The notes beneath the pieces are model-generated. The model ran no database searches and was not told the origin of the DNA. It was given only the letters and a program-made list of their open reading frames with translations. Shown piece after piece: positions 2,105 through 25,711 of a stretch of 25,711 nucleotides of DNA. The translations under genes and the position numbers were made by a program. The DNA is from a virus. Position 1 is the stretch's first letter; every line of letters starts with the position of its first letter. The stretch covers positions 1 to 25,711 of the IMG/VR virus record IMGVR_UViG_3300007519_000070; one strand, written 5' to 3'.

Positions 2105-3580
2105 ATGAAAATAACTAAAAATAAATATAATACTGAATCATTTATTAAAATTTGTGAAGAAATTCATAATAAAGAATATAATTACGATAAGTTAATATAT
2201 TTAGATATTAATACAAAAATAATTATAACATGTGTTAAACATGGTGATTTTAAACAATCACCTAATAATCATATACATGGCCAAGGTTGTCCTATTTGTG
2301 GTAAATCAAAAAGTAAAAAAAATTCAACAACTGATGAATTTATAAATAAAGCTAAAATTATTCACGGTAATAAATATGATTATTCCAAAGTTAAGTATTC
2401 CGACAGTAAAACAAAAGTTAAAATAATATGTTTAGAACATGGTGAGTTTGAGCAAATACCCAGCGGTCACCTTAGAGGTAAGGGTTGTGTAAAATGTGGT
2501 AAAAAATCAGCTAAAGAAAAACTAAGTAATAGTGTTGGATTTTTAGTTGAAAAAGCTGGTGAGGTTCATAATAATAAATATGATTATTCATCAGTAAATT
2601 ACGTTAATGCACACACCAAAATAATAATAAAATGTCCGACACATGGTGAATTTACACAATTACCTTACGACCATTTAAGTGGTCATGGGTGTAATAAATG
2701 TGCATCATCTATATCTAGTTATGAGGTTGAGATTAATGAATTCATAAACTCACTAGACGTTTCAACTATTACTTCATCAATGTCTATAATAAAACCACAA
2801 CAATTAGATATTTTCATACCTTTACATAAAATAGCAATTGAATTCAATGGATTATATTGGCATTCTGAGAATTTTATTGATAAAAATTATCATTTAAATA
2901 AAACTAAAGCATGTGAAGATATAGGAATTCAATTGATACATATATTTGAAGATGAATGGGTAAATAAAAAAGATGTTGTTAAATCTAGATTGAGAAACTT
3001 ACTAGGTGTGACCGAATATAAAATATATGGTCGTAAGTGTTCGATAAAGGAGATAACTAATAATATCTCTAGAATTTTTTTAGATAAAAACCATTTACAA
3101 GGATTCACCAATTCAACAGTTAAATTAGGTCTATTCCACGAGGAAGAGTTAGTTAGTGTTATGTTATTTAATAAACCTAGAATCGGTATAGGACAAGACT
3201 ATGATGGGTATGAATTAACTAGATTTGCTAGTAAATTAAACACTAGCGTTATTGGTGGTGCCGATAAATTACTTAAATATTTCGTTAAAAATACTAAACC
3301 AAAAAAAATAGTTAGTTATGCTGATAAAAGATGGTCAAATGGTGATTTATATGAAAAATTAGGTTTTAAATTAACACATGAGAATAAACCTAATTATTGG
3401 TATGTTTTAGGTAAAACTAGAAAACATAGATTCAATTATCGAAAAAATGCATTAAAAGAAAAAGGTATTGATATAACAAATAAAACTGAACATGAAATAA
3501 TGTTAAATCTTGGCATATACCGTATATATGATTGTGGAACCCTATCATATACTTTAGACTTAAGATTTACTTATCCTTAA
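2105..3580 (+). CDS. Free-standing homing endonuclease with three zinc-ribbon-like repeats
   Basis: A 491-residue mobile DNA endonuclease. Residues about 8-65, 74-132 and 143-199 are three copies of a DUF723-like unit (FxxKAxxxHxxKYDYSxVxY, then a central Cys, HGEFxQxPxxHLxGxGCxxC) that probably binds DNA and zinc. Residues about 205-300 form a PD-(D/E)xK/Vsr-type nuclease region, with LDIFIP (234-239), IAIEFNGLYWHSE (243-255) and LIHIFEDEW (277-285). Residues about 307-485 are a C-terminal domain shared with the 4017-5570 enzyme (YGRKC, FLDxNHLQG, IGGxxKLLK, YADxRW, HRFNYRK, YRIYDCG). It likely cuts phage genomes lacking the insertion near the tube gene. It runs against the surrounding virion genes and overlaps the 3' end of the 3567-3935 gene by 14 bases. 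It looks even more AT-rich than the structural genes, which fits recent acquisition. Confidence 0.85.
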   Translation: MKITKNKYNTESFIKICEEIHNKEYNYDKLIYLDINTKIIITCVKHGDFKQSPNNHIHGQGCPICGKSKSKKNSTTDEFINKAKIIHGNKYDYSKVKYSDSKTKVKIICLEHGEFEQIPSGHLRGKGCVKCGKKSAKEKLSNSVGFLVEKAGEVHNNKYDYSSVNYVNAHTKIIIKCPTHGEFTQLPYDHLSGHGCNKCASSISSYEVEINEFINSLDVSTITSSMSIIKPQQLDIFIPLHKIAIEFNGLYWHSENFIDKNYHLNKTKACEDIGIQLIHIFEDEWVNKKDVVKSRLRNLLGVTEYKIYGRKCSIKEITNNISRIFLDKNHLQGFTNSTVKLGLFHEEELVSVMLFNKPRIGIGQDYDGYELTRFASKLNTSVIGGADKLLKYFVKNTKPKKIVSYADKRWSNGDLYEKLGFKLTHENKPNYWYVLGKTRKHRFNYRKNALKEKGIDITNKTEHEIMLNLGIYRIYDCGTLSYTLDLRFTYP

Positions 3581-3935
3581 GTATTTTATTAGCTATATCT
3601 AACATATCTAAACTATAACCTAAATTATTTTCTTTTGAATATCTATTGAAATTATCAGCTATAATATCAGTTTTATATAATAATTTATTAGACGCATCAT
3701 CCATACCTTTATTAGTTAAAGACTCAATAAACTCTTTTATTTTTTCAGAATCCTCCAACGCATTCTTGATTGCACCCATAGTAGATTTACTCTTAACTGC
3801 ATTGTTTGCTATATTCTCATTTTGACCAGTCAACTTTATATCCATTACTTTTGCGAGACCTAATAAAATATCATCTGAGTTTTCAAATAATAATATAGAC
3901 TTATATTGATTTTCCGTTATAATTAACTTTATCAT
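3567..3935 (-). CDS. Small candidate internal head protein (122 aa), unknown function
   Basis: An unrecognised family. The N-terminus MIKLIITENQYKSILLFE contains ITE and LFE, both fitting the (L/I)xE site of T4-type prohead proteases. The first lies eight residues in, close in size to the 10-residue capsid-targeting peptide of T4 internal protein III. The rest is helical-looking, with many Asn, Lys and Asp residues and no membrane segment. Overall sequence differs from the other two small candidates, but the N-terminal idea is the same. The 3' end overlaps the convergent endonuclease gene by 14 bases. Upstream is a variant of the late motif (TATTTATTAGTAAA). A packaged head protein is inferred; a small regulator is possible. 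Confidence 0.65.
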   Translation of the reverse strand: MIKLIITENQYKSILLFENSDDILLGLAKVMDIKLTGQNENIANNAVKSKSTMGAIKNALEDSEKIKEFIESLTNKGMDDASNKLLYKTDIIADNFNRYSKENNLGYSLDMLDIANKILKDK

Positions 3936-3940
3936 TTTCT

Positions 3941-3954
3941 TTTACTAATAAATA
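3941..3954 (-). promoter_or_regulatory. Variant late promoter motif
   Basis: Minus-strand TATTTATTAGTAAA, 5 bases upstream of the ATG at 3935. It keeps the TATTTAT core but differs in the second half from the exact 13-mer seen elsewhere. Confidence 0.4.
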
Positions 3955-3965
3955 TCTATTAAAAC

Positions 3966-3994
3966 AAAAAAAACCCTCGAAAATTCGAAGGTTT
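3966..3994 (-). terminator. Rho-independent terminator of the 4017-5570 endonuclease
   Basis: Stem AAACC/TCGA pairs with TCGA/GGTTT. The one C-A mismatch on the plus strand becomes a G-U wobble in the minus-strand RNA, and eight U residues follow on that strand, so it works best for the endonuclease transcript. Confidence 0.7.
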
Positions 3995-4011
3995 AATTTT
4001 TTAAGTTTATA

Positions 4012-4052
4012 TTTTTTTAGACATTATCAAATGAAGCACCAGTATTCATTAT
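4012..4052. repeat. 41-bp direct repeat, copy A (end of endonuclease gene)
   Basis: These 41 bases are identical to 5690-5730, the 3' end of the sheath gene. They cover the last 12 codons, the stop and a few bases beyond. Here they form the 3' end of the endonuclease reading frame. Confidence 0.95.
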
Positions 4053-5570
4053 TATAAGCTCGAATCTCATAGAACCACAATCCCAAATTCTATCATAACC
4101 TTTTAACTCCATTATCTCCTTTTCACTTAATCTAACATCATAACCATCTTTAACCAAAACATCTTTTCTATAATTAAATCTATGATATCTATTATTAAAC
4201 TCACCCACCTTAAGGTACCAATAATTTGGTAAGGTATTACCAATGTACTTAAAACCATTTTTATTATACACAGTATTCATTGGGTCTATACCAGACCATC
4301 TTATGTCAGCATACGTTGTTATTTTATATGGTTTATAATCAGTGATGAAATTCTTTAATAACTTAGAAAACCCACCAATAACGGTAGTATTAATTTTATT
4401 AACGAACCTAATTAATTCAAAAACATTCTCAGTCGTCTTATTATGACCTAAAACTTTACGTTCTTTACCAAAAGTCATTAAACTAACTAATTCCCCATCA
4501 TAATATAAACCTAATCTTATTTTATCAACGCAATTACCTTGAATATGATTATCATCTAAAAATTTAGAGCTATCAACCTTATTAACTAATCTAATAATAC
4601 ATTTCCTACCATATATCTTATTAGTATTTAATTTCAATAAATTACCTAATCTAGATAAAACTATATCCTTTTTATATAGTATTTCATCTTCAAATATATG
4701 AATAAGTTTAATACCCTTAGAATTAGCTAAATTAGTCTTGTTTAAATGATATTTCTTATCTTTCTGACCATATTTTTCACTATGATAATAATTACCATTA
4801 ATCTCTAAACCTAAACCATTATCACTTAATAATAAATCAATTTCTTTACCATCTAATACAGTTCTATCATTATCTATATGTTTGATATTATTTTCATTAA
4901 TGAAATCCCTAATACCTTCTTCTAATTTTGAATTTTTAACTAATGGGTTACATTTACGACATATAGGTATCTTTCCAGAACCTAAAACTGTACTTGTAAA
5001 TATATTATCACACTTTAAACACTTGAAATTATACGGTAATGATGTAGAACCATTCTTATTAACAGAATACTCATCCAATAATTCTAAAAAATTAAGATTA
5101 AGTTTAGGTAATAGATTATTAATCTGTTTAATTCTTAATGTCTCTTTAAGATTATCAACAAATTCAGTTTTAAACATAGGGTTAGTAACACCATGTACAT
5201 CTAATAATAAATTTTTAACATTACCCTTAAACTCATCAGTCTTGAATATTGAGTCAACACCATAATTGTCAATCAATTTATTTTTACTAGCAAGTATTCT
5301 AGTGTGTTTATTTTCATCAAGTGAGTTCCACTTTTTCCGACAAATATCAGAACATAACAGTTTATTATGTTTTTTCCTTTCCGTAAATTCAGTCTCACAA
5401 ATTAAACACTTTCTAACTTCCCTCAATTCTGAATCAAATTTCCTACCTATTGTTTTATTTTTCCTAGCATGTTCAAAATAACACGTCCTATTACAAAATT
5501 TCTTATCTCGGTGCTTAAACTCAACCTCAAAATCACCACCACAATTAGTACATATCAATTCTATCTTCAT
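4017..5570 (-). CDS. Free-standing homing endonuclease fused to the sheath C-terminal peptide
   Basis: A 517-residue mobile endonuclease. The N-terminus has Cys pairs of zinc ribbons (CTNC 7-10, CNRTC 26-30, CLIC 55-58, CSDIC 73-77), then two HGV/YGV repeat segments (about 103-140), then CLKC...CRKC (184-207). The nuclease region follows, with EIDLLL (243-248), LGLEINGNYYHSE (253-265) and LIHIFEDE (289-296). The C-terminal domain (about 320-505) is shared with the 2105-3580 enzyme. The native family end is around IWDCGSMRFEL. The last 12 residues, IMNTGASFDNV preceded by I, are not endonuclease sequence: they repeat the end of the sheath protein, encoded by the 41-bp repeat. The gene follows the sheath gene on the same strand and has its own leader (a weak TATATATTTATG at about 5607-5618) and terminator. 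It probably homes into the sheath gene end. Confidence 0.85.
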   Translation of the reverse strand: MKIELICTNCGGDFEVEFKHRDKKFCNRTCYFEHARKNKTIGRKFDSELREVRKCLICETEFTERKKHNKLLCSDICRKKWNSLDENKHTRILASKNKLIDNYGVDSIFKTDEFKGNVKNLLLDVHGVTNPMFKTEFVDNLKETLRIKQINNLLPKLNLNFLELLDEYSVNKNGSTSLPYNFKCLKCDNIFTSTVLGSGKIPICRKCNPLVKNSKLEEGIRDFINENNIKHIDNDRTVLDGKEIDLLLSDNGLGLEINGNYYHSEKYGQKDKKYHLNKTNLANSKGIKLIHIFEDEILYKKDIVLSRLGNLLKLNTNKIYGRKCIIRLVNKVDSSKFLDDNHIQGNCVDKIRLGLYYDGELVSLMTFGKERKVLGHNKTTENVFELIRFVNKINTTVIGGFSKLLKNFITDYKPYKITTYADIRWSGIDPMNTVYNKNGFKYIGNTLPNYWYLKVGEFNNRYHRFNYRKDVLVKDGYDVRLSEKEIMELKGYDRIWDCGSMRFELIIMNTGASFDNV

Positions 5571-5635
5571 AAAGTATTATCTTTTTTTAAGTAACTAACG
5601 CTACACACATAAATATATACAAATGTACTAAAAAA

Positions 5636-5669
5636 GAAAAAGGATGCAAATAAATTACATCCTTTTTTC
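5636..5669 (-). terminator. Rho-independent terminator of the sheath gene
   Basis: Stem GAAAAAGGATG pairs with CATCCTTTTTTC around an 11-nt loop, with A/U tracts on both sides. It lies 25 bases beyond the sheath stop and separates sheath from endonuclease transcription. Confidence 0.75.
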
Positions 5670-5689
5670 TTTAAAAATTAATTACTTAT

Positions 5690-5730
5690 TTTTTTTAGAC
5701 ATTATCAAATGAAGCACCAGTATTCATTAT
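5690..5730. repeat. 41-bp direct repeat, copy B (end of sheath gene)
   Basis: Identical to 4012-4052. The two copies lie 1678 bp apart and bracket one complete unit: sheath terminator, endonuclease promoter region and endonuclease gene. Confidence 0.95.
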
Positions 5731-8511
5731 CACAAATTCTAATTGAATAAATTCTAATGCTCTTGTTGGTTTCAAGAAGATTTGACCAGTTAATTGGTTT
5801 CTATCTAAATCTTCTGGGTCGCTTGAAAGAACCACACGGAAATCTGTTAAACCTCTTTGACTTCTAATGTTATCTAATATTGGGTTTACAAGTGCTAAAA
5901 ATTGATTTCTCACTGCCGAATCATTTTGTTCAAATAATAATCTGATTGAAACTGCAGAAATTAATTTTCTTGCTTGTAATAGTAAACGTCTAACGTTAAT
6001 TCTATTAAGAGCAGTACCTTTAACTTGAAGTGTTTTATTACCCCAAATCTTAACACCATCCGTTGTGAATGTAGCGATTGGATTGATTCTAGCTTCATAT
6101 AAAGTATCTCTCTCACCTAAAGTAAGTACCTTTCTTGCTTGAATCGCATCAACATCACCTCTCTGTATACCAGCTACTGCGAACCAAGGGAATGAAATAT
6201 TATCTGTTAATGCTATATTTCTAACTACGTCACGTGTAGGTGGCATGTATATATATACATTATTTTCAGTATCATTTACTTGAATCCATGGCCAGTAAGT
6301 ACAAGAGTAATTACTATCATATAATCCATCTAAAGCATCAGAGATATCTTCAGCTGTTCTTAAATCACCACCACCATCAGTATCAGGGGTAGTCATTATA
6401 TATAATGAATCTGCTCTATCTTGTTCAATCATTTCGATAGCAGCTTCAATTAAGTTAGAGTTATCGACATTATCAATACCTGGTGTTGCAAATATATTAA
6501 TATTTGTAGCTTCTGGATTTCTAAATGTCCAAATAGCTTCTAAATAAGCGTAGTAATCAGAATTAATACCTATATCACCGTTTGTTAAAGTTTTATTTGA
6601 GAACGCACCACTTAATAAACCATCAGCACCACTAGCACCATTTATTAAAAATGAATCTAAATTACTTCTTCTGCTTCTATAAATATCCCATCCATCAAAT
6701 CCACCATAAGGTGCGAATGTAAATTTACGTGCATATACTTTTTCATATGGTCCACCAACAACACCAGCTTCAGTTCTGAAAGTATCATTACCAACGTCAA
6801 ATGAATAATTTTGGGAACCAGATACACCATCAATAGTTGCACCAAAAGCATCGATATCCATGTGGAATCCACTTGTCATTCCAGTCCAGAAATCAGACGC
6901 ACCATCAGAAGGTTTACCTTTATAATCAAAGAAATCAGAATCAATTCCTACACTGTCAGACAAACCTAAATATACTTTACGTTTATTTTCAAAAGTACTA
7001 TATTCTGTTTTGTATGTTAATTTAGGGTCAACAACATTAGTGTTATTATTTGCTTGATAATCTCTTACTGGAACTCCAAGGAACCCAGATGGGAAAGCAT
7101 CAGAAATATTAGAAGTATCGTCTAATTCAATTAATACGAATGAAGATTTTGATGGATATTCACCATCTAAAGTACCAATACGTCTAGAGATAAAATTATT
7201 TGATGTTGGGTTTAAATTACATTTAGAGAATGACTCCAACACTACTGGTTGTACATCTGTATCTGAGTAAGACCTAACTACTACATCAAATTCTTTAGTA
7301 TCTAATTTAATATTTCTGATTGATATTTTGAATTGCTCATTTGCAGTATTACCATCAGATATTGTCCAAAATCTAAATAATTTCAACACTTTAGTACCAC
7401 GTAATTCAGAAATAACATAAGGTGTTACCGCTGGTTGATATTGTGTTAAATAATCATCGTATTTTTCACCATAATTAACAGTTGCTTGATTAATACCTCT
7501 AACTTTGTTATCAGAGACAAATGATTCAAACATTTTACGATAGAATTCCTCAACATATAATGTAGTGCTACCATCTTGCGCTCCTCTACCTAACGCTCTT
7601 GGTAAATAATTTTGTTTTGTTTTATCTAAAGATAATTGGTAATTAAAATTACCCTGAGTTCTTGAAGCACCAGTTAATCCAAAGTTACCATTAACATCAC
7701 TTATAGAACCAGTTAAAGATGGGTCAAATACAACACCAGTTGTACCAGTTACTTCAAATAAAGGTAATTGTGATGCCGTATCTACAGAAGCTCTAGAACG
7801 TAATAAAGCAACTACTTTATTTTCTACATCTGAATAACCAGAACCAGAACAATTAATTGACGTACCAGAAGTTGTACCAGTAATAAAGTTACCAGTTACA
7901 TCATTACCAGTAGCCGTTACATATAAATTAGCTGATAAACCACTAAATACATCACCAGACTTACGGAATGTTAAAGATATAGCTAAAGTAGCGCCAGTTG
8001 GTAAAGTTGATAATATAGCTAAAGAGCCAGTTAAAGCTCCGTCATTAATTAATGCTTGCATAAGCGCATCACTACTAACAAGAGTAACGTTTGTGTTTGT
8101 AGATGTTGCAGTATATGAAATTAATTGATTAATATTAGTTGTTGATGTAACACCAGTTGTTGAAGAATCCAAAGCAGCGTCCAAAGTAAGTGCCCACCCT
8201 TTACCAGCATGGAACCCAGAAAAACCTAATACCCTTGTTACGAATAATTGGTTAGATTGTGATAAATATGAATTAGCAATATATGGTAACTCATATTTTG
8301 GCGCTCCATTATCCTTTATTTTAGTGGCATTTTGACCACCAAAGAAAGACTTAAATTCACCGTAGTTACCTACGAATATTGGCTGGAACGCTGGTCCCAT
8401 AGTTGTTTCACCAACTAACCCCAATGTTGTAACGCCAATTTGACGTGTTATGAACGATAAGTCTCTTTCTGAAGTAAACACTCCTGGACTTACAAATACT
8501 CTATTCGGCAT
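5695..8511 (-). CDS. Contractile tail sheath protein (T4 gp18-like)
   Basis: A 938-residue sheath subunit that surrounds the tube and contracts to drive infection. The N-terminus (MPNRVFVSPGVFTSERDLS) and the GVTTLGLVGETTMGPAFQP segment are typical of the family. So is the C-terminal domain with TLGERDTLYEARINPIATF, GVKIWGNKTL and NRINVRRLL, then LDRNQLTGQIFLKPTRALEFIQLEF. It is longer than T4 gp18 (659 aa). Residues about 110-330 are Thr/Ser/Gly-rich and look like surface insertion domains. The ATG at 8511 is chosen because MPNRVF is the usual family start; the in-frame ATG at 8634 would add a hydrophobic stretch encoded by the promoter region. The extreme C-terminus is duplicated at the end of the downstream endonuclease. 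Confidence 0.95.
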   Translation of the reverse strand: MPNRVFVSPGVFTSERDLSFITRQIGVTTLGLVGETTMGPAFQPIFVGNYGEFKSFFGGQNATKIKDNGAPKYELPYIANSYLSQSNQLFVTRVLGFSGFHAGKGWALTLDAALDSSTTGVTSTTNINQLISYTATSTNTNVTLVSSDALMQALINDGALTGSLAILSTLPTGATLAISLTFRKSGDVFSGLSANLYVTATGNDVTGNFITGTTSGTSINCSGSGYSDVENKVVALLRSRASVDTASQLPLFEVTGTTGVVFDPSLTGSISDVNGNFGLTGASRTQGNFNYQLSLDKTKQNYLPRALGRGAQDGSTTLYVEEFYRKMFESFVSDNKVRGINQATVNYGEKYDDYLTQYQPAVTPYVISELRGTKVLKLFRFWTISDGNTANEQFKISIRNIKLDTKEFDVVVRSYSDTDVQPVVLESFSKCNLNPTSNNFISRRIGTLDGEYPSKSSFVLIELDDTSNISDAFPSGFLGVPVRDYQANNNTNVVDPKLTYKTEYSTFENKRKVYLGLSDSVGIDSDFFDYKGKPSDGASDFWTGMTSGFHMDIDAFGATIDGVSGSQNYSFDVGNDTFRTEAGVVGGPYEKVYARKFTFAPYGGFDGWDIYRSRRSNLDSFLINGASGADGLLSGAFSNKTLTNGDIGINSDYYAYLEAIWTFRNPEATNINIFATPGIDNVDNSNLIEAAIEMIEQDRADSLYIMTTPDTDGGGDLRTAEDISDALDGLYDSNYSCTYWPWIQVNDTENNVYIYMPPTRDVVRNIALTDNISFPWFAVAGIQRGDVDAIQARKVLTLGERDTLYEARINPIATFTTDGVKIWGNKTLQVKGTALNRINVRRLLLQARKLISAVSIRLLFEQNDSAVRNQFLALVNPILDNIRSQRGLTDFRVVLSSDPEDLDRNQLTGQIFLKPTRALEFIQLEFVIMNTGASFDNV

Positions 8512-8556
8512 AGTTTTCTCTTTTTTTTGTTTTATGTTATTTACTTTATAGTTTTC

Positions 8557-8569
8557 TTTATTATAAATA
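8557..8569 (-). promoter_or_regulatory. Putative late promoter motif for the sheath gene (exact 13-mer)
   Basis: Minus-strand TATTTATAATAAA, 45 bases upstream of the sheath ATG at 8511. Its presence here argues against starting the sheath protein at 8634. Confidence 0.55.
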
Positions 8570-8644
8570 TTAACAATAATCCAAAAGTAATGTCTTAAAA
8601 CAAAATATATCTTTTTAAGTATGAATTTAATCATACTTTTATCA

Positions 8645-8657
8645 TACTTATAATAAA
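8645..8657 (+). promoter_or_regulatory. Variant late promoter motif before the small DNA-binding gene
   Basis: Plus-strand TACTTATAATAAA, one mismatch from the 13-mer, ending 7 bases before the ATG at 8665. The spacing equals that at 470 and 1166. Confidence 0.45.
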
Positions 8658-8664
8658 AATAGAT

Positions 8665-8817
8665 ATGAAACGTGATAAAAACTTAAAAATTACCCCACAA
8701 TCACACACATTACTAAAAGAGTATTGTGAAAAAAATGGTCTTAAAATGTTTGCTTATGTTGAAAAATTAATTAGAGAGTCGTGTACCCCAAAAAAAGACT
8801 TATATGGTGAAGACTAA
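8665..8817 (+). CDS. Small ribbon-helix-helix-like protein (50 aa)
   Basis: A 50-codon gene reading MKRDKNLKITPQSHTLLKEY and continuing CEKNGLKMFAYVEKLIRE. The pattern is a short basic beta strand (KNLKIT), then a helix (QSHTLLKEYCEKNG), then a second helix (KMFAYVEKLIRE). This is the layout of Arc/MetJ-type ribbon-helix-helix proteins, which dimerise and bind DNA through the strand. It is transcribed against the surrounding virion genes from the divergent spacer with the sheath gene. Its stop codon abuts the stop of the membrane protein gene with no gap. It may repress its own promoter and the divergent sheath promoter, but that is inference. The frame is clean and the motif spacing supports the start. 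Confidence 0.65.
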   Translation: MKRDKNLKITPQSHTLLKEYCEKNGLKMFAYVEKLIRESCTPKKDLYGED

Positions 8818-12464: not shown

Positions 12465-14954
12465 TTATCCTCTAATTAATCTTATCCAAACGTTATCGTC
12501 AACAGCTGTAAAAAAATAGTTTGAGTTATAATAGCTTTGACCTTGATATGTATTGGTTATTGATGCTCCAGTATATTGTCCATTAATATCCCAATTAGTT
12601 GCACCACTTAACAATATAACAGCTGTACCACCAGTTATAAATGACTCAATCATTGGGATTTCACTTATCATACCACCAGATAATGATGATGAACCCAAAA
12701 GAGCTGCTTGAGTCATTTGCTGCATTTTATCATACGAAACAACATTCGGTTGAATTGTTGTTGACCCTAGATTATTTATTGTGATATCACCAGTCATCGC
12801 TCTTGATACCGCAGTCGTTCCAGAGCCAACAAATATTTGTCCATTAGCCAACGGTTTTTCAGTTAAAAAACCACTTACACTAAATGTACCACCAGTATTA
12901 TTTGTAAATATAGTCGTACCAGCGTTATATGTACCACCAGTCACCCTAGTATCTATACTTATAGGTAAGTTTTGATATGTAGTAGCTGATATAGTAGTAC
13001 TTGTGATTAATCCATTAACCGTTAATCCAGTCATTGTATTAAATAACGTATTTATTGTACCACCAGTACTATTTGTTAAAGTGATAACATTGTTACCATT
13101 AGTCACTCCAGTAATAACAACTGTTGATGGTAAGTTTTGATATGTAGTGGCTGACATCGTAGTACTTCTAACCAACCCATTAACTGTCAAGCCAGTCATT
13201 GTATTAAACAAAGTATTTATTGTACCACCAGTACTATTTGTTAACGTAATGTTATTATTACCATTAGTTACCCCAGTAATAACAACTGTGGATTGTAATG
13301 GTAAATTTTGGTACGTTGTAGCGGATATCGTAGTGCTTGTGATTAACCCATTAACTGTCAAACCAGTCATTGTATTAAATAAAGTATTTATTGTACCACC
13401 AGTACTATTTGTTAACGTAATGTTGTTATTAATATTCGTTACTCCAGTGACAACAACTGTAGATGGTAAGTTTTGATATGTAGTGGCTGACATTGTAGCA
13501 CTTCTAATCAGTCCATTAACTGTTAACCCAGTCATTGTATTAAATAAGGTATTTATGGTTCCACCAGTACTATTTGTTAAAGTAATGTTGTTATTACCAT
13601 TAGTAATACCAGTAATAACAACTATAGGTGGTAAATTTTGATATGTAGTTGCTGATATCGTAGCACTTCTAATCAGTCCATTAACTGTTAACCCAGTCAT
13701 TGTATTAAATAAGGTATTTATGGTTCCACCAGTACTATTTGTTAACGTAATGTTGTTATTACTATTAGTTACCCCAGTAACAACAACTGTAGATGGTAAA
13801 TTTTGATATGTAGTTGCTGATATCGTAGCACTTGCTATTAATCCGTTAACTGTTAACCCAGTCATTGTATTAAACAAAGTATTTATTGTACCACCAGCAC
13901 TATTTGTTAATGTTAAAACATTATTAGCATAGGTTAATCCAGTAACATAAGTATCAGTCATTCCAGTCAAGAAACCACTCACATTAAATGTACCACCACT
14001 ATTATTTGTAAACGAAGCAATACCAGTCGATTGGTTATATGTACCACCAGTAACATTCATATCACTAGCTAAAATACTTAAATTAGCGATGAAATTAGTA
14101 CCGTCATTTCTACCACCTATTAAATTATATGTGCTATTATTAAATGTTAACCCAGTCATATAGATATCATCAGAAGGTTTGAAAAACCCAGACACACTAA
14201 ATGTACCACCAGTATTATTTGTGAATATAGTTGTACCGCTTGAATACGTACCACCAGTCACCCTAGTATCTATACTTATAGGTAAGTTTTGATATGTAGT
14301 AGCTGATATAGTAGCACTTCTAATCAATCCATTAACTGTCAAGCCAGTCATTGTATTAAATAAAGTGGTTATTGTACCACCAGTAACATTTGTTAAAGTA
14401 ATATTATTATCACTATTTGTAATCCCAGTTATTGATGGGATAGTTTGTGGTAAATTTAAATATGTTGTTGCCGATATTGTTGTTGATGATATCGATGGGG
14501 CAATTACACCACCAGTAAATGTTGCGCCAGAAAGTGTTGCTAAACCATTTTGTTTTATGATTAACGTTTCATTACTTCCAGAATTAAAAATAGAAACATC
14601 TATATTTGTACTCCCACTTATTTTAGAATTAAGAAACCCACTAGTAGTATCTGAAGCTGATATTTTAACTTCTTTAGTATCACCAGAACCAGCAATTAAA
14701 TCATTAATAGTTGCAAAAACATTAAGTGTTGAAGGTGAAGTTGAACCAGTTATCGCATTATATTCATCTTGGGAAATGTTTAAACCACCAGTCGAATTAA
14801 CAACCCATTGGCCGCCACCATCCTTATTTATATATTGTACTGGTACATCTAAATCTATAAAAATAGAACCTTTACTAGAAACATGTGTCGGAACACCATT
14901 ACCAGTTTGTATAAGTATTATCCCTACCGATATTGACCTAATATTATTTGCCAT
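12465..14954 (-). CDS. Large repetitive tail-fibre protein
   Basis: An 829-residue fibre. The N-terminal about 145 residues are unique, with VQYINKDGGGQWVVNSTGGL. Next come TGGT..FTNNTGGTFSVSGF modules and then, at about residues 340-665, six near-identical units of 54-57 residues (TGVTN..NNITLTNSTGGTINTLFNTMTGLTVNGLI..ATISATTYQNLP). The C-terminal part (about 690-829) includes GQIFVGSGTTAVSRAMTGDI and DKMQQMTQAALLGSSS, typical of the distal part of long phage fibres, and ends IRLIRG. The role is an extended trimeric fibre for host attachment (family inference). A variant promoter motif overlaps the end of the upstream gene, so it may be transcribed independently. The long repeat suggests length variation by recombination. 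Confidence 0.8.
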   Translation of the reverse strand: MANNIRSISVGIILIQTGNGVPTHVSSKGSIFIDLDVPVQYINKDGGGQWVVNSTGGLNISQDEYNAITGSTSPSTLNVFATINDLIAGSGDTKEVKISASDTTSGFLNSKISGSTNIDVSIFNSGSNETLIIKQNGLATLSGATFTGGVIAPSISSTTISATTYLNLPQTIPSITGITNSDNNITLTNVTGGTITTLFNTMTGLTVNGLIRSATISATTYQNLPISIDTRVTGGTYSSGTTIFTNNTGGTFSVSGFFKPSDDIYMTGLTFNNSTYNLIGGRNDGTNFIANLSILASDMNVTGGTYNQSTGIASFTNNSGGTFNVSGFLTGMTDTYVTGLTYANNVLTLTNSAGGTINTLFNTMTGLTVNGLIASATISATTYQNLPSTVVVTGVTNSNNNITLTNSTGGTINTLFNTMTGLTVNGLIRSATISATTYQNLPPIVVITGITNGNNNITLTNSTGGTINTLFNTMTGLTVNGLIRSATMSATTYQNLPSTVVVTGVTNINNNITLTNSTGGTINTLFNTMTGLTVNGLITSTTISATTYQNLPLQSTVVITGVTNGNNNITLTNSTGGTINTLFNTMTGLTVNGLVRSTTMSATTYQNLPSTVVITGVTNGNNVITLTNSTGGTINTLFNTMTGLTVNGLITSTTISATTYQNLPISIDTRVTGGTYNAGTTIFTNNTGGTFSVSGFLTEKPLANGQIFVGSGTTAVSRAMTGDITINNLGSTTIQPNVVSYDKMQQMTQAALLGSSSLSGGMISEIPMIESFITGGTAVILLSGATNWDINGQYTGASITNTYQGQSYYNSNYFFTAVDDNVWIRLIRG
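12960..13930 (-). repeat. Tandem 162-171-bp coding repeats in the fibre gene
   Basis: Six consecutive near-identical units, visible as the recurring GTCATTGTATTAAA at about 13033, 13195, 13367, 13531, 13696 and 13861. A seventh related unit starts near 14346. Spacing is about 162-171 bases, always a multiple of three, so the frame is preserved. Confidence 0.85.
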
Positions 14955-17914: not shown

Positions 17915-20836
17915 TTGATTAATTTAGACGATTTAAGAGGGTATTCAGCTATTACACTATTAGGAAACTACGAAGGTGTAAACCCGTACTTAGTTAAACT
18001 TAGAAATGAATATTTAAAAAATAAAAAATTGGGGTTAACTGAAAACCAATCTAAATACATTTTGGATAATCACGATAAAGAACCATTATATATCAATAGA
18101 GTTATTGGTATTACCAAATATTTAGGTGAAGAATTGAAAAAAACTAGTGATTTGTCTTTCACACCAGAAAAATTATTGGTTGAGTTCATATTAGCTGAAA
18201 CAGAAAAAACTTATCACGTATACGGAAAACTTAAACAGAATCAAAAAGAATCCATGATGTACTGGTTACCAAAAACACAAGTTACTGATGACCCATATTT
18301 TGAAAATATCGATATTGATATCGATTTCTCAAAGTATAACGATGTATTAGCATTAGACGGTAAAACCCTTTATCAACATCAAAAAGATGGTATTAAATTT
18401 TTATTAACTAGAAATGGTTGCATTTTAGCTGATGATATGGGTCTAGGTAAAAGTATGCAAGCGATTATAGCAGCACTAGAAAGTGGCGCTAAAAATATAT
18501 TAATTGTTTGCCCCTCATCAACAAAAATAAATTGGGAACGTGAAATAAACGTTTTTTGTGATGATACATTTATTATTGATGGTCAAAAATGGGGTAGCGC
18601 TAAATTTACTATAATAAATTTTGATATTCTTAAGAATTTTCACGGATTAGGACCAGATAAAAAACCAAAAAAAGATGAGCCACAACCAATATTAGCTAGG
18701 AACCTAGTAGAAGCTAAATATGACCTATGTATTATTGATGAAGCACACAACTTAAAGAATAGTGATAGTAAAAGAGGTAAAATAATGGTTGAGCTATGTG
18801 TTAAACATGGTATAGAGAAGACTTGGCTACTCACTGGTACACCAGTTGCAAACAGACCAATGGATTTCTTTAATCTATTATCTATTATTAAGTCTCCAGT
18901 CGCAAATAACTGGAAACACTATGCTCTTAGATATTGTGATGGTAAAAGGTTCTTTAAAACACTTAAAAATGGTGTTAAAAAGCAAATATGGATTACAAAC
19001 GGTGCTAGTAATTTAGAGGAACTATCATCTAAAACAAAAAACATACTATTAAGGAGATTAAAGACTGAGGCTTTAGATATGCCAGATAAAGTTATCACAA
19101 CTATGTATCATAATATGGATAATAAAGGTTGGAAGATGTATGATGATTTATGGGATGAGTACTTAATTGCAAGGAAAGCGCAAGGTAAGAAAACTGGTAA
19201 TTTACAAAAAGACTTAGTTGAACTTATTTTATTAAGACAATTTATCGCAATTCAAGCAATACCTTATACAATAGAAATGGTTGAAAATGCTATAGAAATG
19301 GGACGTAAAGTAATTATATTTACTTCTTTTACTGAAGAATTAGATATTTTATCTAATCACTTTGGTAAATTAGCTGTTACTCACAACGGACTAATGACAA
19401 TGAATCAAAAACAAAAATCTGTAGATTCTTTTCAAAATGATGATAAGATAAAAGTATTTATTGGTAATATAAAAAGTGCTGGTGTTGGTATTACATTAAC
19501 AAAAGCTACTGTTGTGGTATTTAATTCTTTTGATTGGGTAACTGGTAACAATGAACAAGCTGAAGACAGATGTGTTTTTGGTGGACAATTAGTTATGACA
19601 AATAATGGTTATAAATTAATTGAAGATATTGAAATAAATGATTATGTTTATACACATAATGGTAATTTTAAAAAAGTAGTTGATACGCACACACATTTAG
19701 AACATAAAAAAACTAGAGTCGATATTAATGCGTTAGGTTATAATTCTCCTTTAAGTTTAACTAATGACCATAAAGTTTATGTTTACAATAACACAACAGA
19801 AAACTTCGAATGGATTGAATGTGGCTTGTTAGATATAAATAAACATAGTTTAACATTAAAATCAGATAAGCAACCTAAAAAAAGAAAAAAAACTTTAGAA
19901 GTAATTAATTATTATAATAATAATAATTTTGGATTTAAACAAAAAAATTCTAAGTTAAAGTTATTACCAGAAAATGTGGAATTAACTAATGATTTATTAT
20001 ATGCCTTTGGTTTTTTTATTGCTGAGGGTTGGGTTAATGATATGTCCGAAACAAAATCTAGTATAGTTAGTGTTTGTCAAAAAATAGATAATAAAAAAAT
20101 GTATGATTCTGCTAAATACATTATTGATATTTTAAAAGAAAGTTTTAACCTTAATAAACATTCAGAGTATATTGATAAAAATAATATTAAAACATGTACT
20201 ATACGCTCTAAAAATCTAGCGAAAAATTTTATAAATTGGTTTGGTAAAGATGTTCATAATAAACAATTACCAAGTTGGGTTGATGAGTTAAATAATGAAC
20301 AATTAACATATTTATTAGAAGGGTATTATCATGGTGATGGGCAAAAAATAAAAACCACGCAAGCAGCCGTAACAGCATCAAATAAATTAGGTTCACAATT
20401 AATTAGATATAACGCTAATTTAGGTAGAGGTGTATCATTTTGTTTTAAAGATAACCTATATTATAATATTGAATATACCACTGATTTAACACTTAATATA
20501 AATAAAATTATAAAAATAGATGATTACATTATCTATCCTATAAAAAGTTTACATATAAGCAAACCAAAAAGAGGTGAAGAAAGAGTTTATGATTTATCAG
20601 TTGAAGATGACCATTCGTTTGTTGTTGGAAATTATAACGTACATAACTGTTTTCGTATAGGTCAAAAAAACGATGTAAATGTATATTATCAATTATTCAA
20701 TAATACCATATCAACTAGAATGTGGGCCATGTTAAAAAACAAGAAGAAAATAATTAACACCATCATGGGTGAAAAAAAATTAAGTGATGAAGAAATAACT
20801 AACTTATTGATGGATAATTTAGATGAAATAATATAA
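17915..20836 (+). CDS. SNF2-family helicase interrupted by an intein
   Basis: 973 codons; about 614 residues after splicing. This is an SF2 ATP-dependent DNA helicase/translocase of SNF2 (SMARCAL1-like) type, probably acting in phage replication, repair or fork remodelling. Motifs: Walker A ADDMGLGKS (172-180), DEAH (275-278), TGTPVANRPMDFFNLL (motif III), VIIFTSF (motif IV), GIGNIKSAGVGITL-like GNIKSAGVGITLT (motif V), and motif VI split as QAEDR (548-552) then CFRIGQ (912-917). The intein occupies residues 553-911. The N-terminal about 150 residues are a phage-specific domain. No ATG precedes the conserved region in frame after the stop at 17891, so TTG at 17915 is the likely start. Glutaredoxin follows after 8 bases. 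Confidence 0.85.
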   Translation: MINLDDLRGYSAITLLGNYEGVNPYLVKLRNEYLKNKKLGLTENQSKYILDNHDKEPLYINRVIGITKYLGEELKKTSDLSFTPEKLLVEFILAETEKTYHVYGKLKQNQKESMMYWLPKTQVTDDPYFENIDIDIDFSKYNDVLALDGKTLYQHQKDGIKFLLTRNGCILADDMGLGKSMQAIIAALESGAKNILIVCPSSTKINWEREINVFCDDTFIIDGQKWGSAKFTIINFDILKNFHGLGPDKKPKKDEPQPILARNLVEAKYDLCIIDEAHNLKNSDSKRGKIMVELCVKHGIEKTWLLTGTPVANRPMDFFNLLSIIKSPVANNWKHYALRYCDGKRFFKTLKNGVKKQIWITNGASNLEELSSKTKNILLRRLKTEALDMPDKVITTMYHNMDNKGWKMYDDLWDEYLIARKAQGKKTGNLQKDLVELILLRQFIAIQAIPYTIEMVENAIEMGRKVIIFTSFTEELDILSNHFGKLAVTHNGLMTMNQKQKSVDSFQNDDKIKVFIGNIKSAGVGITLTKATVVVFNSFDWVTGNNEQAEDRCVFGGQLVMTNNGYKLIEDIEINDYVYTHNGNFKKVVDTHTHLEHKKTRVDINALGYNSPLSLTNDHKVYVYNNTTENFEWIECGLLDINKHSLTLKSDKQPKKRKKTLEVINYYNNNNFGFKQKNSKLKLLPENVELTNDLLYAFGFFIAEGWVNDMSETKSSIVSVCQKIDNKKMYDSAKYIIDILKESFNLNKHSEYIDKNNIKTCTIRSKNLAKNFINWFGKDVHNKQLPSWVDELNNEQLTYLLEGYYHGDGQKIKTTQAAVTASNKLGSQLIRYNANLGRGVSFCFKDNLYYNIEYTTDLTLNINKIIKIDDYIIYPIKSLHISKPKRGEERVYDLSVEDDHSFVVGNYNVHNCFRIGQKNDVNVYYQLFNNTISTRMWAMLKNKKKIINTIMGEKKLSDEEITNLLMDNLDEII
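19571..20647 (+). mobile_element. LAGLIDADG intein in helicase motif VI (359 aa)
   Basis: A self-splicing intein. It begins with Cys1 (CVFGGQLVMTNNGYKLIEDI), has a block B-like LTNDHKVYV with its His, and ends RVYDLSVEDDHSFVV then GNYNVHN. The +1 extein residue is Cys. The centre carries two LAGLIDADG-type motifs, YAFGFFIAEGW (about 696-706) and YLLEGYYHGDG (about 800-810), so it encodes a homing endonuclease. All expected splicing residues are present: Cys1, block B His, terminal His-Asn and Cys+1. Removing it restores QAEDRCFRIGQ, an intact SNF2 motif VI. It looks more AT-rich than the flanking extein. Confidence 0.9.
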
Positions 20837-22297: not shown

Positions 22298-25200
22298 TTA
22301 ATACCCCCATTCATCATCTTCATCGAATTTAATACCCTCTTCATTAGGGTCATAATCTTCTGGTATACCATAATACGTATCATCCACACCATCATCAAAT
22401 TTTAACACTTCATCTTTACGAATTAAATTACCATCCACATCCGAGATAAAAACTTCTTCCTCATTATCATCATCACCTCCCTCTTCATCTTCTTTACCCT
22501 GCTTAACCTTTTCTACTTTAACTAATTTAAAAGTAGACATATTATCTTTTATTTTATCTAAACTAACAACACCAATTGGTAATATAGTTGAAATATCTAC
22601 TTTTTCTACTTTAAATAAATCCATATTAATAGTCTTACCAGTCATTATCTCACGTTCAGCAACATAATCTAACCATTGTTCATAACGATTATCATTGTTA
22701 TGGTTTTTAGCTAATTTATAGTATTCATCTCTATCTTTAGCTTCTTTTTTGTATTTAAATAAGTCATCATACCTACATAGTTCACCACCCCATTTCCTAG
22801 AGAATAAATAAACACCATTATCATCAGCTGCAACATCAGCAATTTTTATAATATCTATTGGTAATTTATTATTATTAACTATTTCAAGTAAATCAACTAA
22901 CTCCATATGCTTTATTATATCCACCATAACCTCTTTATGAAATTCATTACCTTCAATAACTGCCAAACTCATACGTTCATGGTAATTAGCTCTAACCTCA
23001 ACCCATTCATATAATTCCATATTATTTGGTTGTTTATCGACAGAATCCCAAAACCTAATCTCTTTATCCTCCATCCTCATAAGGTCTTCATAAGAATCTT
23101 GGTCAGAATCTTTATACGGTAAACCACAAGCCAATTCACATTCTTGATTGGTGAATATCGTTCTTTCTTTTAATTTCTCACTATTCTTCTTAGTTACTTT
23201 ATCTTTTGTTTTAATAATATCTAACAAAACTTGACCCCTAACTTCCTCACTAAAACAAACCAATAGTGGTTTAATCTTTTTATTGAAAGCATTTAAGTAG
23301 CGAGAAACATTAAACTCTTCAGTATATAAATTATCATTTATTTCTTTAATTCTCACCTCAATTTCTTGATACGCAGAATCAGTCTTATCTAATTTTAATA
23401 AAGCTTTATTTAAAATATCCATCTCTTTCAAGTTTTCAAAATCATTCTCAACTATCTTAGGGTCAATTAATTTACAATTCAATTCAACCATCTTATCAAT
23501 AACTAATTTTTTACCATGCTCTTTAAAATAATCATCTTTTTCTTTTTTAGTTGTTCTAATCTTATCCATACTTTTTAAATCACCATGAGACTTAGAAGTA
23601 CCAGTATTTATATAATATAAGGTGTCACCTAAATTAACATCTAGTTCAGCTCTCATAGCTAATTCCATATGTGCTTGTTTAGGTAAAGGATTTCCAACCT
23701 TATTTAATTTTTTACTCTTATCTTTATAACCTTGAATAGAAAGTTTAACCTTAGCCTTAGATGCCATTTTAACTACTGGTATCTGATAATTATAAATCTT
23801 ATCAACATACTCATAATAATAGTTAATAAATGAATGTCCATCACCATCTAGTAACATCCTAATACTCTTACCTAAAAATTCCTCAATAAATACTGACATT
23901 TTTTTAGATTTAACTGAATTACCAACTAATTTAATTTTACCATCTATATCATTAGCGTAATTCTTACGAGCAAAATTAATTGTACTTCTACAAATATCAT
24001 CAATATCCAACCCCATACGACCCTCCATATAAACTTCATTAAATTCAGCTAATATTGCTTCTAAACCAATTAGCTCTTTACCAGCATCATCAATTGTTTT
24101 CCAATGAGAACCCTTAGCCATGTATTTAACATCATCAACATTATCTGGGAAAGCAAAATTGAAACCATCAGTATTGTGCGCTATAATACCATTAATACCA
24201 CAAACAAAAGTCCCATCCTCAGTTGAAATATCATAAACGTAATTATTTTTATCTTTATTAGAAATTATTTCATTTTTCCAAACTTCATTTGTTTTCTTTT
24301 TTGTTTTATTAGTAAAACTTGAATTATTTCTATTACTATTTTTAAGGTTAAAAGAAATAAAATTATCCTTATCAAACCTAGTTTTTATTTTAAAATCAAT
24401 ATTTAACTCTTTTAATAACATGGAAATTCCAGCCATAGCTACTTGAGATTTCATACCTATATCCGAGCAATCTTCAATTGTATCACCATAACCATCTGAA
24501 GCAAATACACCCTCAATAAATGATTTTTTAATATCGTAGTTTGAATTTAAAATTATAGATGGTATTTTCTTTTCTCTATATGATGTATAAAAATTTTCAC
24601 AATACTCTTTTGTGAAAATAGAATTATTAACAATTAAATTATAAACACCACTAGATTTTCTATGGTCTTTAATTGAGTTATTAATGTTAAATTCGTTTTT
24701 TAATATCCCACTTAATTTTTCTAATAAATCTAACCTAGAATTTGAAATTTTCCAATCACTTCTTTTACCCTTATTGATATGTGTTTTACCAGTTTTCTTT
24801 GAAACGTATTTTTGTGACCTAGCTGAATTATTAGCCGAACCATCACCTAAGAAAAACCCCATTAAATAAGCTTTATCTAAAGTTAACATCGTTGAAAGAT
24901 TATTTAACGGTATTTCATACGTATCAATTACGTCAAATCTTTTCAAATCAGATGGTTTAACTTCCACTCCATTTTTAAATAACGAATGGTCTTCAGTAAC
25001 ATTTAACAACCTATCTTTGGTTGTTATTCTATGTATATTCTTATCAGTCCCATGTCTATAAACATATTTTAAATCCTTCCAACCATTACGTGTTAACACC
25101 TCAAATGGTTTTTCTTCAAAATCTCTAAGGGATTCTGAATCTAAAAATTCTGATTTCTCATTAAACAAATCACAAATAGGTAACACATCGATATATTTTT

Positions 25201-25711
25201 CATCTGTTTTATATCTAATATATACTGGTGTATCATACGTTACTGAGTCTCCAACCAAAGGTCTAAAACCATATTTCTCAGTAAAATGTCTAACCATAAG
25301 TCTTAGATACTGTCTACCACGACACGTTGTTTCTTCAGCTGAATTAGAATCACCCCAATTAAAAATATATGGGGCACCATACGAACCAAACCATGAATTA
25401 GCTAATATTTTAAGGGGTAATTGTTTCTTATCATAAAGATTTGCTAATGCTTTAAATTTTGAAATCTCAGCAACATGTTCATCTATAACTTCTTTAGTCA
25501 TATTTTCTCTATTTTCAGATAAATAAGACTCTAACTTTTTATATTTTTTCTTTTCTATACCAGTTTTAAATTTAAACTCATCTCTCGTATCAACAATATA
25601 TGTCAATGTTCCTTCCATCATTCCAGAAATATCTAAATCTGGAAAAATTAAATGTGTTAATTGAATCTTAGGGTATAATGCCGCAAAATCTAACTTAACA
25701 ACATTCTTAGC
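22298..25711 (-). CDS. Family B DNA polymerase, 5' end outside the window, interrupted by an intein
   Basis: The frame is open to the right edge, giving 1137 codons without a start, so an initiation at 25621 is not real. The first 30 codons encode polymerase motif A (KLDFAALYPKIQLTHLIFPD). Motif B is KILANSWFG (fragment residues 101-109). Motif C is split by the intein: VGD (153-155), then TDGFNF (514-519), giving the metal-binding GDTDG after splicing. VGNSVKSKKM likely supplies the conserved Lys region after motif C. The exonuclease domain must lie beyond the window. The C-terminal part is long, with an acidic tail (KEDEEGGDDDNEEE...) ending FDEDDEWGY. It is the probable replicative polymerase, on the strand opposite the helicase. 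Confidence 0.9.
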   Translation of the reverse strand, partial: AKNVVKLDFAALYPKIQLTHLIFPDLDISGMMEGTLTYIVDTRDEFKFKTGIEKKKYKKLESYLSENRENMTKEVIDEHVAEISKFKALANLYDKKQLPLKILANSWFGSYGAPYIFNWGDSNSAEETTCRGRQYLRLMVRHFTEKYGFRPLVGDSVTYDTPVYIRYKTDEKYIDVLPICDLFNEKSEFLDSESLRDFEEKPFEVLTRNGWKDLKYVYRHGTDKNIHRITTKDRLLNVTEDHSLFKNGVEVKPSDLKRFDVIDTYEIPLNNLSTMLTLDKAYLMGFFLGDGSANNSARSQKYVSKKTGKTHINKGKRSDWKISNSRLDLLEKLSGILKNEFNINNSIKDHRKSSGVYNLIVNNSIFTKEYCENFYTSYREKKIPSIILNSNYDIKKSFIEGVFASDGYGDTIEDCSDIGMKSQVAMAGISMLLKELNIDFKIKTRFDKDNFISFNLKNSNRNNSSFTNKTKKKTNEVWKNEIISNKDKNNYVYDISTEDGTFVCGINGIIAHNTDGFNFAFPDNVDDVKYMAKGSHWKTIDDAGKELIGLEAILAEFNEVYMEGRMGLDIDDICRSTINFARKNYANDIDGKIKLVGNSVKSKKMSVFIEEFLGKSIRMLLDGDGHSFINYYYEYVDKIYNYQIPVVKMASKAKVKLSIQGYKDKSKKLNKVGNPLPKQAHMELAMRAELDVNLGDTLYYINTGTSKSHGDLKSMDKIRTTKKEKDDYFKEHGKKLVIDKMVELNCKLIDPKIVENDFENLKEMDILNKALLKLDKTDSAYQEIEVRIKEINDNLYTEEFNVSRYLNAFNKKIKPLLVCFSEEVRGQVLLDIIKTKDKVTKKNSEKLKERTIFTNQECELACGLPYKDSDQDSYEDLMRMEDKEIRFWDSVDKQPNNMELYEWVEVRANYHERMSLAVIEGNEFHKEVMVDIIKHMELVDLLEIVNNNKLPIDIIKIADVAADDNGVYLFSRKWGGELCRYDDLFKYKKEAKDRDEYYKLAKNHNNDNRYEQWLDYVAEREIMTGKTINMDLFKVEKVDISTILPIGVVSLDKIKDNMSTFKLVKVEKVKQGKEDEEGGDDDNEEEVFISDVDGNLIRKDEVLKFDDGVDDTYYGIPEDYDPNEEGIKFDEDDEWGY
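24173..25246 (-). mobile_element. LAGLIDADG intein in DNA polymerase motif C (358 aa)
   Basis: The intein starts with Ser1 (SVTYDTPVYIRYKTDEKYID), has a block B-like LLNVTEDHSLFKNG, and ends YDISTEDGTFVCGINGIIAHN, with Thr as +1. Two LAGLIDADG-type motifs are visible, AYLMGFFLGDG and SFIEGVFASDG, so the endonuclease looks intact. The insertion point, between GD and TDG of the catalytic motif, is the classic pol-c site of family B polymerases. Ser1 and Thr+1 are accepted splicing nucleophiles. Polymerase activity depends on splicing, because two metal-binding Asp residues are separated. Confidence 0.9.

Follow-up and report, generated by a model that had tools for sequence, protein, structure and literature searches.

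Integrative elements enter the 3′ end of a conserved tRNA or protein gene and rebuild it, with the displaced end coming to lie at the far side of the element and repeats flanking it. In fungal mitochondria, mobile open reading frames (mORFs) have been described at atp6, atp9, cox2 and nad3 of Glomus (Beaudet 2013, PMC3630166) and at atp6 of Allomyces macrogynus (Paquin 1994, as cited in PMC3630166). These mORFs consist, like the locus described below, of a free-standing endonuclease ORF between a foreign functional C-terminus, to which the resident gene is joined, and a displaced native C-terminus, and synonymous divergence reveals their horizontal transfer. In phage T4, the Seg and Mob endonucleases are likewise encoded by stand-alone, intergenic genes adjoining conserved phage genes; such intronless homing spreads by double-strand-break repair with co-conversion, and in one-sided events the ends are joined by illegitimate repair at microhomology (PMC2988022).

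The 25,711-nt stretch of viral DNA analysed here (the window) carries, in this order on its minus strand, a tail sheath gene (8511-5695), a hairpin terminator, a promoter-like stretch, an endonuclease gene (5570-4017) and the native sheath terminator, beyond which follow a gene of 122 aa (3935-3567), a second endonuclease gene on the opposite strand (2105-3580) and the tail tube gene (2006-1518). The sheath gene, the target, codes for 938 aa (MPNRVFVSPG...IMNTGASFDNV; PHROG 23/10581, tail sheath), and its relatives align from the same start. Its present 3′ end, comprising stop codon and A-run (copy 1, 5690-5730, minus strand) and regarded here as a regenerated end, recurs at 41 of 41 positions as copy 2 (4012-4052, minus strand), with a mismatched base flanking the repeat at either side and looser similarity (91% over 54 nt) extending past it. 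Read on the minus strand, the 41 bp consist of 11 sense codons (IMNTGASFDNV), the stop codon and five more bases, and in copy 2 they provide the last 11 codons and the stop of the endonuclease gene; both ORFs, 4017-5570 and 5695-8511, are intact. This is the longest exact direct repeat within 3001-8700, compared to a mean longest repeat of 13 bp and a maximum of 17 bp in 100 first-order shuffles, and no third copy was found anywhere in the record at up to three mismatches, nor any match to a reversed control pattern. The mismatch-free, in-frame repeat of the original prediction is thus borne out, with the qualification that the 12 codons it had counted include the stop, the sense codons numbering 11.

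As had also been proposed, the copies bracket a terminator, a promoter region and the endonuclease gene. A hairpin with a T-run (an inverted repeat at 5632-5672, minus strand), which the element would have brought along as terminator, occupies the interval between sheath stop and endonuclease, and similar hairpins are found at the equivalent place in L161, L195 and L196/L107. Next to it lies the promoter-like stretch TACATTTGTATATATTTAT (5609-5627, minus strand), for which conservation suggests a function: 12 of 13 family members keep ATATTTAT 45-51 nt upstream of the endonuclease start, and its position reads TAnnTTTG in the clade of the window. On the minus strand of the window the motif is seen at 5609-5616 and, before the native downstream gene, at 3948-3956. 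Standing ahead of this native gene and of nearly all family endonucleases at a near-fixed distance, ATATTTAT might possibly be a phage promoter element.

A scan with the sheath protein of the window gathered 80 relatives, of which the two closest, L002 and L003, have no endonuclease at the sheath end and one sheath end only. This single end is followed by sequence like window positions 3960-4011, by the old terminator and by the next gene, exactly the empty site that had been predicted. By blastn, L002 aligns from -37 to 472 relative to the sheath stop to window DNA beginning inside copy 2, and its sheath body, up to the stop, aligns as a separate match; the window shares the hairpin ACCTTCGAATTTTCGAGGGT and the next gene with both relatives. 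As L002 and L003 continue in the same way as the window does after copy 2, the terminator at about 3966-4000 is native. Together with the 3′ UTR (3966-4011, minus strand) it directly follows the sheath stop in L002/L003 and now lies 3′ of the endonuclease, in accordance with the suggestion that the old terminator had been displaced behind it, and the native 122-aa gene (3567-3935, minus strand) adjoins the sheath in the empty relatives. It therefore follows from the comparison with L002/L003 that the block beginning at the sheath stop and running through the endonuclease core is an insertion. Relatives carrying both copies without the endonuclease, which the original prediction had named as the contrary case, were looked for and amount to 0 of 64 empty-site relatives, and among 102 distinct sheath ends a second one scored only in endonuclease-bearing members.

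With respect to the endonuclease itself, a scan with the single protein retrieved only a near-identical contig, and an alignment of the window enzyme with its homologue from L161 (65% identity) was required as query to collect further homologues, yielding 44 loci, one of them (L237) spurious. All 43 recognisable family members reside at the 3′ end of a tail sheath gene, 42 of them on the same strand as the sheath, with about 110-130 nt between its end and the endonuclease start codon, and one (L222) convergent with the sheath and adjoining its end. With 64 sites empty, the family thus occurs sporadically, always at one fixed site. At 90% identity its full-length members fall into 15 clusters, and their C-termini are alike up to '..DRIWDCGSMKFEL', followed by a stop after a few residues, in most cases as '..KFELxx*'; the window endonuclease, in contrast, reads '..RFEL' and then enters the displaced sheath end as IIMNTGASFDNV. 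Since the homologues stop just past the common C-terminus, the window enzyme has no stop of its own, in line with the earlier claim that the displaced original end became the tail of the endonuclease. At the joint of the endonuclease core with this end (4053-4065, minus strand) a few bases still match sheath positions 5731-5743 (microhomology FEL/EFV).

A continuation past the common C-terminus, into either IIMNTGASFDNV or FVIMNTGESLTNI, is found only in the window, L195 and L197. In the latter two a comparable fusion with an open frame is present, the tails have substitutions at conserved positions (NTGESLTNI), the two sheath-end copies differ at 11 of 45 positions, and the displaced end is 7-8 differences away from the nearest native ends; an AU test on whether the fusions of the window and of L195/L197 go back to a single event gave p = 0.449. 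L198 has kept the endonuclease stop and carries a displaced sheath end of 44 nt (43 identical) three bases further on and out of frame, and in L213, L214 and L216 a decayed displaced sheath end provides the endonuclease stop in another frame. Most family clusters, situated 3′ of the sheath, have no second sheath-end copy and possess an endonuclease stop of their own (L161/L199 and the L204 group), and in-frame fusion to a displaced sheath end is not a general property of the family.

The 517-aa enzyme (4017-5570, minus strand) is assigned as a sheath-end-specific homing endonuclease of PHROG 3339/559 from alignment and structure model. Its gene is intact, and its nuclease assignment is by sequence, with a match to PHROG 3339 'homing endonuclease' at E = 4e-105. 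It consists of an N-terminal zinc-finger-like part, the nuclease core, a C-terminal Mom-like GNAT-fold domain and the fused tail. The residues D245, E256 and H263 of the core are invariant in 17 homologues, and on our reading of the alignment D-x10-E-x-N-G..H would correspond to a Vsr/PD-(D/E)XK-like pattern. No nuclease structure was matched in a PDB sequence search with the endonuclease, and Pfam, NCBIfam and PDB sequence searches left the nuclease poorly named. An AlphaFold model of the entire enzyme has a mean pLDDT of 83.9, with residues 509-517 below 50, and for the C-terminal domain the top Foldseek match is 8bv8, the GNAT-fold Mom protein of phage Mu. This Mom-like GNAT fold spans residues 320-505 behind the nuclease core, with a weak Pfam Mom match, and represents a fold of the DNA-modification type in a homing enzyme.

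That the element brings its own sheath end, as originally predicted, is supported by a foreign 3′ tract in L024 and L091 and, weakly, in the window. Compared with the empty phage L105, L024 has 7 differences in 338 nt upstream of -85 and 15 in the last 85 nt (p = 3e-6, Fisher's exact test), followed by 6 differences in the 42 nt of the displaced copy and by 60 of 60 identical positions from the stop on, which shows a foreign block made up of the last ~85 nt of the sheath gene, the element and the displaced copy. L024 and L091 are most similar precisely in the final 90 nt of the sheath gene, and their sheath bodies cluster with those of empty phages. More generally, endonuclease-bearing phages compared with their nearest empty relatives diverge disproportionately over the final 51 nt of the sheath gene, with ratios from 1.7 to 11 and a median of about 2.6 as against 1.4 in empty pairs (p = 0.0014, Mann-Whitney test), a pattern resembling a homing co-conversion tract, which in this case would be the sheath end of the donor. 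For the window and L002 the corresponding difference is weak (7/51 in the last 51 nt vs. 14/285, p = 0.026), and 10-19% of sliding windows in their sheath genes differ as much. In the comparisons with L002 and L105, as well as in the L024/L091 tract, the resident sheath gene ends in an element-supplied copy and the native end lies behind the endonuclease. Between copy 2 of the window and native L002, in turn, 5 of 36 coding positions differ, vs. 2 of 98 in the right flank (p = 0.015, Fisher's exact test), and this copy is of the type of the new sheath end, not of the native L002 type. The near-identity of the two copies in the window, L024, L076, L198 and L249 would mean that donor and recipient shared the same end, that the displaced copy is carried along by the element as a right homology arm, or that conversion homogenised the pair. 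The greater difference of copy 2 than of its flank from L002 favours one of the latter two, and the displaced 41 bases of the window may accordingly be element-borne or homogenised.

Longer enzymes of a zinc-finger-repeat type lie 3′ of the sheath in reversed orientation in, e.g., L012, L014, L024, L058, L067, L070, L076, L091 and L249. In L024, L091, L076 and L249 a displaced sheath end of 29-42 nt is found beside the endonuclease start, the copies being identical at 41/42 positions in L024 and exact over 29 nt in L076 and 34 nt in L249, and L239 has the L024 arrangement again in another sample. L024 and L091 contain one element (enzymes 91% identical) with the same junction and differing downstream genes, and in L091 decay of the displaced sheath end has left NAGASFDKI, which fits a presumably useless remnant.

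Some further observations concern these enzymes. L195/L197 and L058/L067/L073, the phages with the most similar sheath bodies, differ in the type and orientation of the endonuclease that they carry at this sheath end, apparently as elements competing for one site. In L250-L315, zinc-finger-repeat endonucleases and several conserved genes (sheath, glutaredoxin-like and baseplate-like) converge at the 3′ ends of the latter, which looks like a niche preference for gene ends. The second endonuclease of the window (2105-3580, plus strand; PHROG 559) is also of the zinc-finger-repeat type and convergent to the 122-aa gene; because L002 and L003 lack it, its bounds can be placed at about 2019 and 3565, and no duplicated gene end was seen at it. 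In L286 (~2800-4740), an endonuclease next to a baseplate-like gene is flanked by a 111-bp repeat (98%) that includes the upstream region of this gene and its first 26 codons (MAQKIPYFARNF...), so that a gene start and not a gene end is duplicated. Elsewhere in the window, a DNA-polymerase-like ORF (22298-25621, minus strand) contains a LAGLIDADG intein (Pfam intein match) and an SNF2-type helicase ORF (17915-20836, plus strand) an intein-like insert recognised by eye, and with two intein or intein-like inserts and two free-standing endonucleases this genome is crowded with mobile elements. A large fibre-like ORF at 12465-14954 (minus strand) is composed of near-identical repeats (TGVTNGNNNITLTNSTGGTINTLFNTMTGLTVNGL...).

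The reading that we consider well supported is that of a homing endonuclease gene which is free-standing and has the sheath 3′ end as its specific target, homing with co-conversion of the donor's end and displacement of the old one. We infer from the sequence comparisons that the enzyme would cut the sheath end of phages without the element near the codons E-F-V-I, probably some 33-45 bp short of the last base of the stop codon; displaced copies start 33-45 bp ahead of the stop end. To the left of the cut, the sheath gene would supply the homology for invasion of the donor sheath gene, and the element would be copied from the donor, starting with the donor's last ~50-85 nt of sheath coding sequence and continuing through a new stop, the terminator and the promoter into the endonuclease gene. 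The sheath end that the recipient had to the right of the cut would thereby be moved behind the endonuclease. In close relatives the right joint would form in homologous 3′ sequence without a second copy (L161 vs. L153); otherwise it would form by one-sided repair at microhomology and leave the old sheath end over, in the manner of one-sided homing in T4 (PMC2988022). In the window the joint would have been made at the FEL/EFV codons, whose similarity would be the reason for the in-frame fusion, with the endonuclease stop lost and the protein ending in IMNTGASFDNV. The sheath protein remains complete. However, the identity of the window copies at 41/41 positions is evidence to the contrary, as several silent differences between donor and recipient ends would usually be expected. 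The displaced coding bases of L024 and of the window agree with the sheath end of the element, and native sequence sets in again at the stop codon; on this basis it is conceivable, if rather tentative, that the displaced gene end serves as a portable right homology arm, the element then carrying both flanks of its target. If so, a conserved sheath end would be all that a phage needs to be open to homing, even without downstream homology, and the duplication in L286 would be the mirror image at a gene 5′ end.

The near-identity of the copies (41/41 in the window, 43/44 in L198, 41/42 in L024, 29/29 in L076, 34/34 in L249) would also agree with a target-site duplication, in which a break with a stagger of ~30-45 nt is made by the enzyme or as two nicks, the element is joined in and gap filling doubles the sheath end in a transposon-like manner. 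We nevertheless regard this as unlikely, since a simple duplication leaves unexplained the foreign 3′ sheath tract beyond the repeat (to -85 in L024), the copies of L195/L197 differ at 11/45 positions, the different phages L024 and L091 have the same element at an identical junction, and the second copy is missing in most family clusters. The many members with their own stop and a single copy (L161/L199, L204 group) would suit an origin of the second copy after insertion, gene conversion or slippage having put the sheath end onto the end of the downstream endonuclease gene, for which the FEL/EF similarity could act as seed. Such copying is nonetheless improbable, given that the sequence behind copy 2 is, from the stop on, the native sheath 3′ UTR (L002, and L105 for L024) and that copy 2 of L024, L076 and L249 lies beside the start codon of a reversed endonuclease.

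The open frame in the window/L182, L195 and L197 might further suggest a function for the sheath C-terminus carried by the endonuclease, e.g., in binding to the virion tail or in packaging the enzyme for delivery. However, the tail is predicted to be disordered, L195/L197 have substitutions at its conserved positions, most homologues have no tail, and the L198 copy is outside the reading frame, all of which makes a function very improbable; as the tail looks unstructured, the fusion is probably incidental and the tail functionless. An assembly error, in which two reads are fused at a repeat, may come to mind with metagenomic data; nothing in favour of it was found. It is disfavoured by a near-identical IMG/VR contig (L001/L182, 99.9% identity to the window with 8 mismatches in 9549 nt) carrying the identical pair of copies, and by L238/L239, a second phage, in which a separate double copy is seen in two samples, once on a 362-kb contig; the probability of such an error is practically negligible. 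Rejected as well were a group I intron, as Rfam gave nothing credible and no intron in 3500-6200 and the unit sits 3′ of the sheath stop, an intein, given this same position and the lack of an intein domain in the endonuclease, and an integrase-driven element, as the endonuclease is the sole recognisable gene between the copies and no recombinase is present.

Homing with replacement of the gene end means that a selfish phage endonuclease could attack a structural gene harmlessly at its essential and most conserved end by supplying a new one, and this supply would explain the transfer of the element between phages with little downstream similarity. Displaced ends would be fossils of past homing that indicate its direction and approximate cut position, and as they mark homing events, the history of homing becomes readable from metagenomes. 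Caution is warranted in turn, as sheath 3′ ends are mosaic and C-terminal identity of unrelated phage proteins can be insertion debris.

Integrative elements rely on an integrase and reversible site-specific recombination, whereas the unit in the window encodes an endonuclease only. A duplicated gene end or a regenerated target-gene terminus does not occur in the review of T4 homing (PMC2988022; word search 'duplicat'), and the literature searched contained no phage example of an endonuclease replacing a gene end, which is weak evidence of absence. The mORFs of Allomyces and Glomus are mitochondrial, encode LAGLIDADG or GIY-YIG enzymes and replace parts of about 50-300 nt (PMC3630166). The window element, in contrast, targets a phage tail sheath gene, encodes a putative Vsr/PD-(D/E)XK-like enzyme (PHROG 3339/559), replaces about 35-85 nt, has its own terminator and putative promoter, and its endonuclease is fused to the displaced end. 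Within the limits of these sources, the fungal mitochondrial mobile ORFs of Allomyces and Glomus, which have the same layout, are the nearest known cases.
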